From the NCBI GenBank assembly GCA_005502925.1, contig SCPD01000002.1:930001-994000 (forward strand): a stretch of DNA of 64,000 nucleotides, read 5' to 3'. Below the pieces are notes generated by a model. That model saw only the letters and a list, made by a program, of their open reading frames with translations, was not told where the DNA came from and did not search any database. The first letter of the stretch is position 1; each line of letters begins with the position of its first letter. The stretch is from Rhizobiales bacterium Y(2018) (GTDB lineage: Bacteria; Pseudomonadota; Alphaproteobacteria; Rhizobiales; Aestuariivirgaceae). Position numbers and translations under genes: made by a program. Of the stretch, positions 3,603 to 26,116 are shown in pieces.

Positions 3603-4025
3603 ATGCGGACAGGCGGATGCCTATGCGGAGCCTGCAAATACGAAATCGACGGTGATCCGGTGGCCGTCGCCCACTGCCATTGCATCGACTGCCAGAAGCT
3701 GACGGGTGCGGGCCATGCGACCGGAGCGATGTTCGCCGAAGATCGAATTCGCCTGTCCGGCCCGAGCACGAGCTATTCGATGCCGGCGGAGAGCGGGAAC
3801 AAGGTCACGCGGGTCTTCTGCAGCACATGCGGCAGTCCGCTGTTCGGCAGGAACTCGGGCATGCCCGGATATATGACCGTGTCTCTGGGCACCCTCGACT
3901 CCTCCGATGATCTGACGCCGCAGGTCGTGCTGTTCGCACGGTCGCGTCGCCCATGGGACATCATGGATGAGGCGCTGCCTACCTACGCGACCCAGCCCGA
4001 TTGGAAGCCGAGCCGCGCCGACTGA
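3603..4025 (+). CDS. GFA/CENP-V family zinc protein
   Basis: A 140-residue glutathione-dependent formaldehyde-activating-like (GFA) fold protein. The paired zinc ligands are visible: C6 and C8 with C73 and C76 (structural site), and C25, C27 and C30 (second site). Family members are often annotated as S-(hydroxymethyl)glutathione synthase, but most have no proven function. It starts after a GGAG ribosome site and is divergent from a glutathione S-transferase operon with a shared operator type, which fits a glutathione-linked detoxification role by inference. Confidence 0.85.
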   Translation: MRTGGCLCGACKYEIDGDPVAVAHCHCIDCQKLTGAGHATGAMFAEDRIRLSGPSTSYSMPAESGNKVTRVFCSTCGSPLFGRNSGMPGYMTVSLGTLDSSDDLTPQVVLFARSRRPWDIMDEALPTYATQPDWKPSRAD

Positions 4026-4101
4026 AGGCGCTTCTTTGGTGCTGCTCCCGGACCCCGTTAGTGATTGATTTTGTTAATTTAATTACTCTTCTTGTCTGTT
4101 G

Positions 4102-4133
4102 TATAGTCAATGACTATATTGCAGTCACTGACT
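4102..4133. promoter_or_regulatory. Two adjacent palindromes, candidate FitA/VapB autoregulatory operator
   Basis: TATAGTCA-A-TGACTATA (4102-4118) is a perfect inverted repeat with a one-base centre. AGTCA-C-TGACT (4123-4133) repeats the same half-site. Four AGTCA/TGACT half-sites lie directly before the antitoxin ribosome site. This is typical of co-repression by an RHH antitoxin and PIN toxin complex. Binding is inferred. Confidence 0.6.
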
Positions 4134-4146
4134 TATGGAGGTGATC

Positions 4147-4395
4147 ATGGCCGTGATGACCATTCGCAACATCGACGATGCCATCAAGAAGAGGCTCAGA
4201 GTGCGTGCGGCGATGCATGGTAAGTCCATGGAGGATGAAGCGCGCGACATTCTTCGCGCCGCTCTCTCGACTGAGGCGCCGCGCCCTCGAAGCCTGGGTC
4301 GCGCAATACACGATCGCTTTGCCGCTCTTGGCGGGGTGGACGTACCGCAGGTGCCGCGCGAGGCCGTGCGGCCGCCGGTCGACTTTGAAGAATGA
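4147..4395 (+). CDS. FitA-like ribbon-helix-helix antitoxin
   Basis: An 82-residue antitoxin. The N-terminal ribbon-helix-helix (about residues 1-45, starting MAVMTIRNIDDAIKKRL) binds DNA. The proline-rich C-terminus (VPQVPREAVRPPVDFEE) is the usual tail that threads into the toxin active site. The start at 4147 is fixed by the near-perfect GGAGGTGATC ribosome site; an in-frame ATG 12 bases upstream would put the ribosome site inside the gene. It overlaps the PIN toxin by four bases (ATGA), so the two are translationally coupled. Confidence 0.88.
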   Translation: MAVMTIRNIDDAIKKRLRVRAAMHGKSMEDEARDILRAALSTEAPRPRSLGRAIHDRFAALGGVDVPQVPREAVRPPVDFEE

Positions 4396-4817
4396 TCGTC
4401 CTGGACACCAATGTCGTTTCCGAGCTCATGCGGGCGAAGCCGGATGCGCGGGTAATGGCTTGGTTCGAACAGCAGCCCTCCGCCGGACTGTTCACGACGT
4501 CGCTCACCCAGGCTGAGATCTTCTACGGCCTGGCCTTGCTCCCCGACGGCCAGCGCCGCCAAGCTCTGATGGCGGCCGCGCGTTTGATGTTCGATGAGGA
4601 TTTCGCCGGGCGCATCCTGCCTTTCGATGTCGAGGCGGCGTCGATCTATCCCGAGATCGCTGCCGGTCGACGCCAGATCGGCAAACCGATCAGCCAGTTC
4701 GATGCGCAGATAGCCGCCATCGTCCGCTCGCGTGGCGCGCGGCTTGCGACACGCAATATGCGCGACTTCTCGGATTGCGGAATTACGATCGCCGACCCCT
4801 GGACGGAAGCTACCTGA
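4392..4817 (+). CDS. FitB/VapC-like PIN domain RNase toxin
   Basis: A 141-residue PIN-domain ribonuclease, the toxin of the pair. The acidic metal-binding residues are visible at D5 (MIVLDTNVVSE), E42, D104 and D125. PIN toxins cleave RNA with Mg or Mn and are neutralised by the cognate antitoxin, whose gene overlaps this one at its start. Length and motifs are complete, so the toxin is probably functional. The gene is convergent with tex; the two stop codons abut. Confidence 0.9.
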   Translation: MIVLDTNVVSELMRAKPDARVMAWFEQQPSAGLFTTSLTQAEIFYGLALLPDGQRRQALMAAARLMFDEDFAGRILPFDVEAASIYPEIAAGRRQIGKPISQFDAQIAAIVRSRGARLATRNMRDFSDCGITIADPWTEAT

Positions 4818-7154
4818 TCACCGCTTCTCTTTGCCCGCTGTGAAGCCCGCCTGCCGCAAGGCATCCGCCAGGGCGCCACCGGCGGAGGAAGATGACTTGT
4901 CCTTGCCGCCTTGCGGGCCGGCATAGCCGCGCTTCGGCGCATTGCGGTCGCCGGCGCTCGAGTTGCGCGGCGGCTGGCTGCCCACTTCATCGTCGAGCCG
5001 CATCGTCAGGCTGATACGCTTGCGCGGCTTGTCGACTTCGAGAACCTTCACCCGCACGATATCGCCGGGTTTTACCACCTGGCGCGGGTCTTTCACGAAG
5101 GTCTTCGACAAAGCGGAAATATGCACGAGCCCGTCCTGATGCACGCCGATATCGACGAAGGCGCCAAAGGCGGCGACATTGGTGACCACGCCTTCCAGCA
5201 CCATGCCGGACTCGAGATCGTTCATCGTTTCGATGCCGGCCTTGAATTCCGCCGTCTTGAAGGCGGGGCGGGGATCGCGGCCGGGCTTTTCCAATTCGCG
5301 CAGGATGTCGGTGACGGTCGGCAGGCCGAATTTTTCGTCGACGAAGGACCTGGGGGCGAGGCCGCGCAGCACCGGCGCATTGCCGATCAGGAGCTTGATG
5401 TCGTTCTTGGTCGCCTCGATGATGCGGCGCACCACCGGATAGGATTCGGGATGCACGCCTGAGGCGTCGAGCGGATCGTCGCCGCCATTGATGCGCAGGA
5501 AGCCGGCGCATTGCTCGAAGGCCTTGGGACCGAGCCGCGGTACTTCTTTCAGCGACTGGCGCGAGGCGAAGCGGCCATGCGCGTCGCGATGGGTGATGAT
5601 ATTCTGCGCCAGCGACTCGCCGATGCCCGAGACGCGCGCCAGCAGGGGCGCGGAGGCGGTGTTGAGATCGACACCGACGCCGTTCACGCAATCCTCGACC
5701 ACCGCATCGAGCGAGCGCGACAGTTTGTATTCGCTGAGATCATGCTGATACTGGCCGACGCCGATCGATTTCGGATCGATCTTCACCAGCTCCGCCAGCG
5801 GGTCCTGCAGCCTGCGCGCGATCGACACGGCGCCGCGCAAGGTCACATCGAGGCCGGGGAGTTCTTCAGAAGCATAGGCCGAAGCCGAGTAGACCGAGGC
5901 GCCCGCTTCCGACACCACGATCTTGTTGAGCTTCGGATTGGCGAGCCTTTTCACGAGCTCCGTCGCGAGCTTGTCGGTCTCGCGCGAGGCCGTGCCATTG
6001 CCGATGGCGATCAGCTCGACCTTGTGCTCGAGCACCAGCTTGCCGAGGATCGCGAGCGACTCGTCCCAGCGCTGCTGCGGCTCATGCGGAAAGATGGCGG
6101 TCGTCGCCACGACCTTGCCGGTGGCATCGACCACCGCCACTTTGACGCCGGTGCGGAAGCCCGGATCGAGGCCGAGCGTCGGCCGGGCGCCGGCGGGAGC
6201 CGCCAGCAGGAGATCGCGCAGATTGGCGGCGAAGACGCGCACCGCTTCTTCCTCGGCCGCCGTCCACAGGCGCAGGCGCAGATCGATCGACAGAGTGATG
6301 AAGATCTTGGTGCGCCAAGCCCAGCGCACCGTTTCGGTGAGCCACTTGTCGCCGGGGCGGCCCTGGTCGATGATCGCGTAGCTGCGCATGATACGCTGCT
6401 CATAGGTGCTGACCGTCGGCCTCGTCGCCGGATCGTCCGGCTCGACGATGAGGCTCAGGATCTCCTCGCGCTCGCCGCGGAACAGCGCCAGCACGCGATG
6501 CGACGGCATCTTGGTGAAGGCTTCCGAGAACTCGAAATAGTCGCTGAACTTGGCGCCGGCTTCCTTCTTGCCGTCGCGCACTTCCGACTTGAGCCGCGCA
6601 TTGGCCCACAGCTCCTCGCGCAAGGTGCCGATGAGATCGGCGTTCTCGGCGAAGCGTTCGATGAGAATGGAACGCGCTCCATCGAGCGCCGCCGCCACGT
6701 CGGCGACATTCTTGTCGGCCGAGACATAAGGCTCGGCGGCGACCTTGGGATCGTTCGAAGGATCGCTCAACAGCAGGTCGGCGAGTGGCATCAGGCCCGC
6801 TTCCTTGGCGATCTCGGCTTTGGTGCGGCGCTTCGGCTTATAGGGAAGATAGATGTCTTCGAGGCGGCCTTTGCTGTCGGCGGCCATGATCTGGGCTTCG
6901 AGCGCCGTGTCGAGCTTGCCTTGCTCGCGCACCGACTCGAGGATGACCTTGCGCCGGTCCTCGAGCTCGCGCAGATAACGCAGCCTCTCTTCCAGCGTGC
7001 GCAATTGCGCATCGTCGAGCGAGCCGGTGATTTCCTTGCGGTAGCGCGCGATGAAGGGCACGGTGGCGCCGCCGTCGATCAGCTCGACCGTGGCGGTGAC
7101 CTGCTGCTCCCTCACATTGAGTTCTTGGGCGATGCGCGCGTGAATGGAAACCAC
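4818..7154 (-). CDS. tex: Tex, RNA-binding transcription accessory protein
   Basis: A protein of about 778 residues with the full Tex architecture: N-terminal helical domain with [13 protein letters not shown], YqgF/RNase-H-like domain (around [17 protein letters not shown]), two HhH motifs ([21 protein letters not shown]), and a C-terminal S1 RNA-binding domain ([21 protein letters not shown]). After S1 comes a short low-complexity basic tail. Tex affects transcription and RNA turnover. No ATG is available at the N-terminus; the GTG at 7154 has a well-spaced GAGG site, and the GTG at 7163 is the longer alternative. No operon partner is apparent. Confidence 0.95.
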
Positions 7155-23248: not shown

Positions 23249-23725
23249 CTATTTCAGGGCGGCGAAATTCGCATGAGCGGAGATGAGCCACTGGCCATCC
23301 ACCCGCCGGAACACCGATAGCCGTGGCGAGTTTGCTTCGACGGTTTTCCCCTCGATGGACTGATCCGTCTCGATCCGGTAGCGCAGGACCATGACGTCGC
23401 CCGCTCCCCTGGCCACGATATCGCTGAATTTGGAGCGGATCTTCTGGTTCGGGAGAGATTTGAGGTAGCTCGTCTTGTCATGGCCGGTGCCGTCCGATCG
23501 CAGGATCTGGTATTCCGGTGCCAGGACTTTTTCGACCTTGGCGGGATCGCCGGAAAAAAGCGCATCCGCCCAGGGATCGAGAGCCTTCAGGGCTTCTTCC
23601 TCGGAGACTTCTACCGCTGCAGCGGCGCTTCCCGCTCCCACTGCGAGGGCGGAGATCGTCGCCAATGCGGCAATCGAAAAATCCCTGCGGGTGGATGTCT
23701 TCCTGTCCTGCGCTTGCTCGATCAT
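23249..23725 (-). CDS. Exported NTF2-like (SnoaL/DUF4440) protein, copy A
   Basis: A 158-residue protein. The N-terminus has a twin-arginine motif (STRRDFSIAALA) and hydrophobic stretch ending in ASAAAA-type residues, so Tat export is expected. The mature part is an NTF2-like cone fold (EEEALKALDPWADALFSGD, then QWLISAHANFAAL). NTF2-like proteins can bind small ligands or be enzymes; no catalytic motif is clear. It is a close duplicate of the next gene, sharing the leader and most core residues. Confidence 0.82.
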   Translation of the reverse strand: MIEQAQDRKTSTRRDFSIAALATISALAVGAGSAAAAVEVSEEEALKALDPWADALFSGDPAKVEKVLAPEYQILRSDGTGHDKTSYLKSLPNQKIRSKFSDIVARGAGDVMVLRYRIETDQSIEGKTVEANSPRLSVFRRVDGQWLISAHANFAALK

Positions 23726-23819: not shown

Positions 23820-24293
23820 TCATCCCAGGGCGGCAAAATTCGCATGCGCTGAGATCAGCCAGTGACCAGCCTCCCGTCGAAACACCGACAGGCGGGGCGA
23901 GATTCCCTTGACCGCCTTGCCGTCAATGGTCTGGTCCGTCTCTATGCGATAGCGCACGACCATGACATCGCCAGTGCCGGTTGCGATAATGTCGCTGAAT
24001 TTGGAACGGATCTGATGGCGTGGCAGCGCCTTGAGGTAGCTAGCCTTGTCATGGCCGCGCCCATCGGACCGCAAAATCTGGAATTCCGGCGCCAGGACCT
24101 TGTCGACCACTGCGGGATCGCCGGTGAAGACCGCCTCTATCCACGGATCGAGCGCCTTCAGGGCTTCTTCCGGCGAGATTTCTTCCGCCGCAGCGGCACC
24201 CGCGCCCAGCGCGAGCGCGGACAGGCCGGCCAGCGCGGCCAATGAAAAATCCCTGCGTGTGGATGTTTTTCCGTCCTGCGCCTGCGTGTTCAT
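23820..24293 (-). CDS. Exported NTF2-like (SnoaL/DUF4440) protein, copy B
   Basis: A 157-residue paralogue of the protein at 23249-23725, with the same STRRDFSLAALAG Tat leader, the same EEALKALDPW start of the mature domain and the same HWLISAHANFAAL end. The tandem arrangement with about 95 bases between copies shows a local duplication. Substitutions are spread over the whole length, so the duplication is not recent and both copies seem maintained. Confidence 0.82.
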   Translation of the reverse strand: MNTQAQDGKTSTRRDFSLAALAGLSALALGAGAAAAEEISPEEALKALDPWIEAVFTGDPAVVDKVLAPEFQILRSDGRGHDKASYLKALPRHQIRSKFSDIIATGTGDVMVVRYRIETDQTIDGKAVKGISPRLSVFRREAGHWLISAHANFAALG

Positions 24294-24370: not shown

Positions 24371-26116
24371 CTAGGCGCCATTTGCCTGGATCGGCTCGCC
24401 GTCGGCGCCGCCCAATAGCCTTATGTTCAGCCGACCTCCGGAAAATACCATGTCGTTCAGCGCCTCGGCGATATCTTCGGAGGTTGCCACCGACCCTCCG
24501 CGCATCAGACTCGACTGAGCCGTTCGCCGCATCAATTCCTTGATGAATGCGGCGCTGACTCCCTTGGTGCGGTCGACGGCTTCTCCCACGAGAGCATCTG
24601 AGAGCTCCAATTTCGCGCCATAGAGGCGAATGAGTTTCTCGCGGCCGATTTCGCCGGGAAGCGGTACCTCGATCGCCTGATCGATACGCCCCGGCCTGCC
24701 GGCCAATGCGGCTTCGAGCTGTTCGGGTCGGTTGGTGGTGAGGACGAAGATGATGTCGGCATCTTCCTTCAATCCGTCCATCTCGTTCAGCAGTGAGTTG
24801 AGAAGCGGCTCCTCGCAGCCCCGCATGGTCTCACGGCTTCGGGCGATGAGATCGACATCCTCGATCACCACCATGGCGGGCTGCAGCAGGCGGGCCAGGG
24901 TCATATATTGGGTGAGGAGCCCCATTTGCCCGGCCGTGATGAGGAACGTCGTATGGCCGGGCAGATTGCTCGCGAGATAGCGGATCGTATGCGTCTTGCC
25001 CGTGCCGGGCGGACCATAAAGAAGCACGCCCTTTCGTGTCGACTGGCCGAGCCGGCGCAGCATCTCGCGGCTGTCGACGAACTTCAGAACGTTCCGCTCC
25101 AGAAGCCTGAGTGTCTCCTCCGGCAGGATGACCGCCTCGCGCTGCACATCAGGCAGACGATGCACGAGCAGGCCTTTGCTCCGCCCGCGATAGTCCTCTT
25201 CACCTTCGAACGACAGGACCTTGCCGCGATATGATCTGGAATTGTGGACGGCTGTCTCGAGCGTGGTGAAGCAGCGTCGGACAAAGGTCGCACCCGCTTC
25301 ACCGACTGGAACGGCAATCTCCACGCAGGAGCCCGCTTCATGACCGAATTCGCGATGAGAGGAGAGAACGATGGCGAAACGTAGGTCTTCCTCGCGGCGC
25401 AGCCACAGTCCGTTATTGAGGCATCGGACCGGCTCATCCTCGCCTATGTCGACATCTTGAAACTGCGCCGCGGCCAGCGTCGCCGCATGTTGGCCGTCTT
25501 GAGTCAGTGTCGTAAAGGTCAGGGTTTCATAACGATACGGCTCGTGAATGCCGAAGAAACGGATGGGCGCGGTTGAAAAGAGACTGTCGAGTGCCCGTTG
25601 CAGATCGGCGCGCATATGTCCTGGAAACCGGCGCATCGTGGTAACGATCTCATCCTGGGCCAAGCCCGAAAAGTGCCAGGCAATGGCCTCATGCGCGCAT
25701 CTGAAAGGTTTCTGGCGCGCGATCTCTGAAAGATGGCTCGCGGCTGTCTGAACACAGGCATCGCAAATGAACGCCGTCTTGCCTCGAATGAGTGTGCGTT
25801 CCGGCGTTGCCACGTTGAAGCAGAAGGCGCAATGCGCCTCGCCCGCCGTCGAAACGGGCTCAACGCTGATGCGCAGCGGATGACCGGCTGCCTGAATGCG
25901 CTCCCGGGCTTTGGTCAGCAGGGCGTCCGCGGCGGCGGGCGTGTGAACCGCGCACACGGCCCGGTTTTCGGTGGTAATCGCCGCGACCAAAGCCTTCGCT
26001 TCGATCCGCGACTTGCCAAAAGTGCTGGCGAGGAGATCGACGACGAAGTCTTCCGGTGTTTCATCGTCATTGTGGAGTATGATCAGCTGATCGACGACTT
26101 CCGTGGCTGTGCTCAT
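24371..26116 (-). CDS. ClpS-like / ClpX-zinc-finger / AAA+ ATPase fusion protein
   Basis: A 581-residue protein with an unusual order of domains. Residues about 7-88 match ClpS (LHNDDETPEDFVVDLL, then NRAVCAVHT), the N-degron adaptor, but the position of the ClpS His that holds the substrate amino group is T48. Residues 96-121 form a ClpX-type zinc finger (C96, C99, C118, C121). About 140-330 is an unassigned region. About 331-545 is a classical AAA+ ATPase: Walker A GPPGTGKT at 368-375, Walker B VVIED near 416-420, sensor N462, arginine fingers in AGRPGRID (R474, R477). No protease domain and no ClpP-docking loop was recognised. It is monocistronic. It is probably an unfoldase or remodeller with a built-in substrate receptor. 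Confidence 0.85.
   Translation of the reverse strand: MSTATEVVDQLIILHNDDETPEDFVVDLLASTFGKSRIEAKALVAAITTENRAVCAVHTPAAADALLTKARERIQAAGHPLRISVEPVSTAGEAHCAFCFNVATPERTLIRGKTAFICDACVQTAASHLSEIARQKPFRCAHEAIAWHFSGLAQDEIVTTMRRFPGHMRADLQRALDSLFSTAPIRFFGIHEPYRYETLTFTTLTQDGQHAATLAAAQFQDVDIGEDEPVRCLNNGLWLRREEDLRFAIVLSSHREFGHEAGSCVEIAVPVGEAGATFVRRCFTTLETAVHNSRSYRGKVLSFEGEEDYRGRSKGLLVHRLPDVQREAVILPEETLRLLERNVLKFVDSREMLRRLGQSTRKGVLLYGPPGTGKTHTIRYLASNLPGHTTFLITAGQMGLLTQYMTLARLLQPAMVVIEDVDLIARSRETMRGCEEPLLNSLLNEMDGLKEDADIIFVLTTNRPEQLEAALAGRPGRIDQAIEVPLPGEIGREKLIRLYGAKLELSDALVGEAVDRTKGVSAAFIKELMRRTAQSSLMRGGSVATSEDIAEALNDMVFSGGRLNIRLLGGADGEPIQANGA

Follow-up and report, generated by a model that had tools for sequence, protein, structure and literature searches.

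A ClpS-like domain, a ClpX-type zinc finger, and an AAA motor in one chain: an apparently undescribed bacterial protein family

The window analyzed here, a stretch of DNA of 64,000 nucleotides, contains at 24371..26116 on the minus strand a gene whose product of 581 amino acids consists of a ClpS-like domain, a zinc finger, a middle domain, and an AAA module (open reading frame and Pfam). The earlier note had placed this gene correctly and had read a ClpS-like domain, a ClpX-type finger, and an AAA module in a single chain. Pfam confirmed all three, each above its curated cut-off: ClpS with 50.9 bits (cut-off 23), zf-C4_ClpX with a marginal 28.2 bits (cut-off 27), and AAA with 77.4 bits. The protein had also been described as lacking a protease, which agrees with the Pfam search: of its 26 matches, 25 were listed, and none of these is a protease domain. 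A full-length model built from 26 rows (mean pLDDT 75.6, pTM 0.44) was confident for the ClpS part and for the bulk of the middle domain, moderate for the finger, and low for residues 294–317 and the C-terminus; because of the pTM of 0.44, the placement of the domains relative to each other is unsure. The motif LNxxLLGGA (residues 563–571, 24404..24430, minus strand) is near-invariant at the C-terminus in an alignment of 26 rows, yet disorder begins at residue 569 in the model. The motif was absent, as judged by eye, from those core-only relatives, i.e., relatives without ClpS and without the finger, that were read.

Downstream, the fusion gene is followed after 77 bp by two tandem genes of the same strand (23249–23725 and 23820–24293), which encode DUF4440 proteins that are 76% alike and have twin-arginine-like N-termini as judged by eye. 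Neither had a match in the other loci compared, and the ORFs flanking the fusion gene match almost only the nearest relative, L006. A shared partner gene was considered for the family and rejected, as flank clusters of at least ten loci (the gene itself and shadow frames aside) never include L006–L015.

The 80 best of 122 relatives returned by a search of genome contigs were retained, and a one-off fusion or assembly chimera was thereby ruled out. The alignment discussed below holds 78 distinct rows, namely the window's protein, 75 of the 80 fetched loci, and L088 and L089 from two more genomes. Loci with broken or cut frames (L022, L057, L071, L072, and L079) were left out; L086 and L087 equal L006 and L007 and were counted once, and L001, L094, and L101 correspond to the window itself. 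ClpS was present in all 78 rows, with L018 starting only at residue 20. Fusion copies with stops or frame changes, due to either decay or sequencing error, were seen in several Bradyrhizobium-type genomes (L022, L057, L072, L079, L090, and L128). Another copy, typical of Bradyrhizobium, stands in a record titled Frankia sp. RB7 (L038), and this title may be a misnomer or reflect contamination.

We analyzed the distribution of the fusion at several taxonomic levels. It was detected in three of five genomes of the window's genus (the window's own included) and in 2 of 55 other genomes of its family at E ≤ 1e-100; a further genome of the order (G093) matched over the middle domain and the AAA module, preceded by a stop. 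Across the phylum, 369 of 398 genomes matched a ClpS-plus-finger profile at E ≤ 1e-10. Among the top matches listed, the match runs into the finger in five genomes, all from the window's order and one with a stop, and a sixth genome among the matches listed has ClpS without the finger. The fusion is thus confined to one order in this sample. The host genome also has two other, ordinary ClpS genes and one other finger gene (75.9 bits) with a 440-residue frame as expected of ClpX. A phage origin was rejected: viral contigs yielded one relative, matching in the AAA part only. In phage records, coverage begins at residue 263 or later among the best 20 of 169 matches, and a query with the ClpS part gave three stand-alone ClpS proteins.

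In a core tree of 57 rows with midpoint root, finger-bearing forms occur in a main clade (97/96) as well as outside it (L088 and L089), and finger-less rows appear at about five places. A core-only clade from plasmids was placed tentatively outside the main clade with L088 and L089. An ancestral full form with repeated loss would fit these sequence comparisons, which do not prove it. Estimates of dN/dS, several from pairs with dS >1, were 0.10–0.44 for the ClpS part in six of seven pairs (one saturated), 0.23–0.62 for the zinc finger in six pairs, and 0.06–0.17 for the middle and AAA parts in seven pairs. By these ratios, the ClpS part and the finger are under constraint, but less so than the middle and AAA parts. 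Because they evolve faster and are absent from some relatives, both modules may be accessory.

The ClpS-like domain (PF02617) occupies residues 12–83 (25868..26083, minus strand; E-value 1.3e-13). Residues 1–123 alone matched solved ClpS chains in a PDB sequence search (E 3e-7), a profile from 18 family N-termini matched ClpS at E 8e-15, and PF02617 was found at E ≤ 0.001 in all 26 family members scanned. The model of residues 10–87 has the strand-helix-helix-strand-helix-strand order of ClpS (pLDDT 80–92 in ten-residue blocks), so that the claim of an N-terminal ClpS-like domain is upheld by both Pfam and predicted structure.

The ligand site of this domain is altered. The window's protein retains N16, D17, and D18, and T48 aligns, as had been claimed, with the His of E. 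coli ClpS, which we take to be residue 66 and to hold the amino group; the Asn/Asp-plus-His site is therefore incomplete. Thr at this position does not characterize the family, being found in three of 78 rows (Glu 47, Leu 10, Ser 7, Asp 7, and Phe, Trp, Asn, and His one each). The His itself is gone in 77 of the 78, which supports the earlier suggestion of an unusual ligand: the ligand of this domain is probably not a standard N-degron. The sole row with the His, L089, lies outside the main clade of the core tree, as if an ordinary ClpS ligand site had been present early and lost later.

These residues also bear on another explanation, in which the domain would bind N-terminal residues via Glu or Asp at position 48 and feed them into the AAA ring, possibly for a separate protease. 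Binding of an amine by acidic residues is conceivable, given Asn or Asp at position 16 in 76 of 78 rows, Asp at position 17 in 75, and Glu or Asp at position 48 in 54; positions 25 and 47 remain hydrophobic, and L089, outside the main clade, retains the His. However, position 48 also accommodates Leu, Ser, Thr, and Phe, and position 22, presumably the gate Met of ClpS, is variable. Together with the lack of a protease domain among the listed Pfam matches and with the motor anatomy described below, this makes the explanation unlikely.

The second module, a ClpX-type C4 zinc finger (PF06689; residues 95–129, 25730..25834, minus strand), has its cysteines at C96, C99, C118, and C121, exactly where they had been placed. 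Solved ClpX zinc-finger chains were matched weakly by residues 1–123 (E 0.05), and the profile from 18 N-termini matched ClpX at E 8e-4. The model shows two strands and a helix at this position (pLDDT 64–72 in ten-residue blocks). All four cysteines are present in 56 of the 78 rows and none of the four in the other 22, suggesting that the finger is dispensable in the family. The finger model reached E 0.001 in only 2 of 26 members, though 18 of these carry the four cysteines.

Loss of modules is relevant to a further proposal, namely that ClpS and the finger have no role in substrate recognition and only dock the ATPase on another complex, such as the ClpA N-domain, the ribosome, or a partner protein. 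It would agree with the loss of the ligand His, with the 22 finger-less rows, and with the absence of both modules from the core-only clade. Docking on ClpA, at least, is unlikely: the contact residues of E. coli ClpS, which we take to be E79 and K84, align with A61 and L66 in the window's protein, and across the 78 rows position 61 is mostly Ser, Ala, Pro, or Thr and position 66 Leu, Met, or Ile. In the accessible text of a study of another NTPase-dependent system, an "L12/ClpS domain" is called multimerizing (PMC7159879), which would be compatible with docking. Overall, we consider a pure docking role doubtful.

The region of about 190 residues that follows had been left unassigned. No Pfam family was indeed detected for it, but it is a folded domain in the models (pTM 0.78 for the isolated model), with alpha/beta structure at residues 137–318 (25163..25708, minus strand). 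Sequence searches of Pfam and PDB gave no relatives at useful E-values, and a profile comparison with outside relatives was equally unproductive (pairwise E 0.018, probability 2.5%). In a fold search, all 50 matches listed were helix-grip proteins by name, including START, PR-10, and Rieske oxygenase catalytic domains. With one match below E 0.001 among these 50 and a TM of about 0.3, the helix-grip label is a weak one.

The AAA module comprises residues 319–566 (24419..25162, minus strand; Pfam AAA at 364–486, E 1.8e-21). It contains the Walker A motif GPPGTGKT (residues 368–375, 24992..25015), the Walker B motif MVVIED (residues 415–420, 24857..24874), and the motif R474-x-x-R477 (24686..24697), which we take to be the arginine finger; all three lie on the minus strand and were assigned by alignment, the last in the 78 rows. 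Walker A, N462, R474, and R477 are invariant in these rows. The earlier reading of intact Walker residues is nevertheless not supported: Walker B reads IEDVD, and in each of the 78 rows its acidic pair is E-D (E419-D420), compared with D-E in the host's two FtsH-like proteins. That the motor falls outside the ClpX clade was borne out by the NCBIfam ClpX models, which cover residues 93–135 only.

In addition, Walker A and Walker B are separated by 51 residues in 77 of the 78 rows, the exception being L020, which has no IEDVD string. Three outside relatives share this spacing, whereas it is 59 residues in the two FtsH-like proteins of the host. The gap coincides in the alignment with a loop of p97-type chains that is presumably pore loop 1, so that in 77 of 78 rows this stretch lacks 8 residues relative to the host FtsH-like proteins. 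The reversed acidic pair and the shortened stretch make a threading unfoldase less likely, which further weakens the proposal that N-terminal residues are fed into the ring. Over the same Walker A–B stretch, YjoB of Bacillus aligns 65 residues to 67 and p97-type chains align 75 to 83, YjoB being the last of 60 matches listed in that search.

We then compared the motor with known AAA proteins. In a PDB fold search, the first rank was a 26S proteasome chain, with Bcs1 at ranks 2 and 4 and YjoB at ranks 9 and 15. The first 50 E-values, mostly for p97, FtsH, and proteasome chains, lie within only about 20-fold of each other, and superposition was poor for Bcs1 and YjoB (rmsd 10.5–14.9). The best sequence scores were those of Cdc48, PAN, and FtsH rather than Bcs1. 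FtsH models match the AAA part only, and the 25 listed Pfam matches (of 26) of the window's protein include neither a peptidase, such as the zinc metalloprotease domain of FtsH, nor a Bcs1 N-terminal domain. In a viral library, BCS1 was named in 5 of 50 matches listed. The AAA part also scored 74.4 bits with the PADLOC model IetA and 68.4 bits with the NCBIfam anti-phage ATPase NF042959, so a defense ATPase of the IetA kind was considered. This is highly improbable, since the cut-off of NF042959 is 510 bits and its match begins at residue 321.

Considering these features, our preferred reading, to which we assign a probability of about 45%, is that the family forms a protease-free, self-contained AAA ring that acts on folded clients, remodeling or releasing them, and carries its own altered ClpS receptor. 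The retained residues (Walker A, the acidic pair, N462, R474, and R477) suggest an active ATPase. Since the usual pore-loop-1 stretch is missing, the ring would probably act in a Bcs1/YjoB-like manner, by changes of its shape on a folded client rather than by threading. The middle domain may lie above the ring, where it would form a chamber for the client or serve in coupling, and the N-terminal ClpS-like domain would serve as a receptor in cis. With the His lost, this receptor could have another ligand than ClpS, or it could recognize a partner protein rather than a free N-terminus. In ClpX, the zinc finger is a dimerizing and partner-docking module, and it might be an optional module of this type here. 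Remodeling of folded proteins without a protease is thus the likely mode, as judged from motor anatomy.

Some relatives are linked to nitrogen fixation. A core-only query against 72,556 plasmid records gave 47 matches at E ≤ 1e-60 (Rhizobium 25, Sinorhizobium 19, Mesorhizobium 2, and Paraburkholderia 1). From the top matches, 14 places in 13 records were inspected with flanks of 4 kb (L102–L106), 10 kb (L111–L114), or 9 kb (L120–L124), and with an incomplete plasmid gene table. nif or fix genes were present in the flank at 6 of the 14: the AAA gene is flanked by nifHDK and nifENX at L102, adjoins fdxB and a NifX-associated gene at L103 and L111, lies upstream of fixA and fixB at L105 and L113, and is almost 9 kb from fixL at L123. 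None were found in the flanks of the other eight (L104, L106, L112, L114, L120, L121, L122, and L124). At L102, on a Paraburkholderia sprentiae plasmid, the AAA gene (3944–5351) is split into two overlapping annotated frames, and at L120, L121, and L122 core-only copies on accessory plasmids lie near cytochrome P450s, polyprenyl synthetase, and omptin or pitrilysin-type peptidases. Among five regions with finger-less ClpS forms from Bradyrhizobium, L115 and L116, chosen because nif and the fusion share a contig, adjoin nifN and fdxB, and L117–L119 do not. nif genes were found at one (L077) of the 80 ClpS loci with flanks of up to 6 kb. The nif link is therefore not general.

A sigma-54 type site (at most one mismatch, within 450 bp upstream) precedes the gene at 5 of the 14 plasmid places, compared with 2.25% of random stretches from the loci under study; because L103/L111 and L105/L113 are close relatives, these five represent about three lineages. 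At L105 and L113, a NifA-type TGT-N10-ACA is located about 80 bp above the site, before the core-only AAA genes. Such a site was present at 2 of the 80 ClpS loci, whose start positions are approximate, and none was found upstream of the window's fusion gene. A query that detected nifD in 24 of 28 other genomes gave no match in the window's genome, and therefore the nif link concerns relatives, not the window's protein. The M. loti NifA-regulon paper (PMC3538637) makes no mention of ATPase, AAA, or Clp in its main text, as accessible. It is conceivable, though improbable, that the family is a new Hyphomicrobiales branch of folded-protein remodelers with a ClpS-derived receptor, stripped copies of which were recruited to the root-nodule NifA regulon and assemble or rescue iron-sulfur or nitrogenase proteins, much as Bcs1 does for Rieske protein.

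The fusion of ClpS, zinc finger, and AAA module is real and apparently constitutes an undescribed bacterial family. No description of it was found in the accessible open-licence literature on such fusions, nif-linked AAA proteins, Bcs1, and YjoB, subscription papers and preprints being outside the scope. If our preferred reading is true, a ClpS receptor that otherwise belongs to a diffusible adaptor has become part of the motor chain itself. As this motor seems incapable of ordinary substrate threading, recognition of the ClpS kind would then have been separated from proteolysis. The nif-linked relatives provide a testable phenotype, nitrogenase activity in nodules.

Comparison with known systems shows both likeness and difference. 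The family shares with ClpS, the N-degron adaptor of ClpAP, the fold order and the NDDxTPxxFV motif (E 1.3e-13), whereas its domain is covalently fused to an AAA module, lacks the presumed amino-group His in 77 of 78 rows, and has changed at the presumed ClpA-contact positions. Its finger resembles the N-terminal zinc-binding domain of ClpX in its four cysteines (C-x2-C twice) and the helix that follows, but it sits on a non-Clp AAA module, barely passes the Pfam cut-off, and is absent in 22 of 78 rows. With Cdc48/p97, PAN, and FtsH, the motor shares its best sequence matches, the arginine-finger motif, and the Asn; it differs in the E-D of Walker B, the shortened pore-loop-1 stretch, and the lack of a protease domain. 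In Bcs1, whose client is the folded Rieske protein, Walker B is likewise ED, and a classical pore loop is not known. The family resembles Bcs1 and YjoB in the fold search (ranks 2 and 9) and, by alignment, YjoB in its short Walker A–B stretch, although it has no listed Bcs1 N-domain, carries ClpS and the finger in front, and is closer to Cdc48-like chains in sequence. Bcs1 is described as moving folded proteins in the accessible text of two papers (PMC7824862, PMC10672213). Finally, vWA components with inserted L12/ClpS domains occur beside MoxR ATPases (PMC7159879, accessible text). In that system, too, a ClpS-like domain is fused into part of an NTPase-dependent machinery; it resides in the vWA partner rather than in the ATPase chain, and the same text mentions no ClpX finger, whereas in the present family receptor, finger, and motor are joined in one protein.
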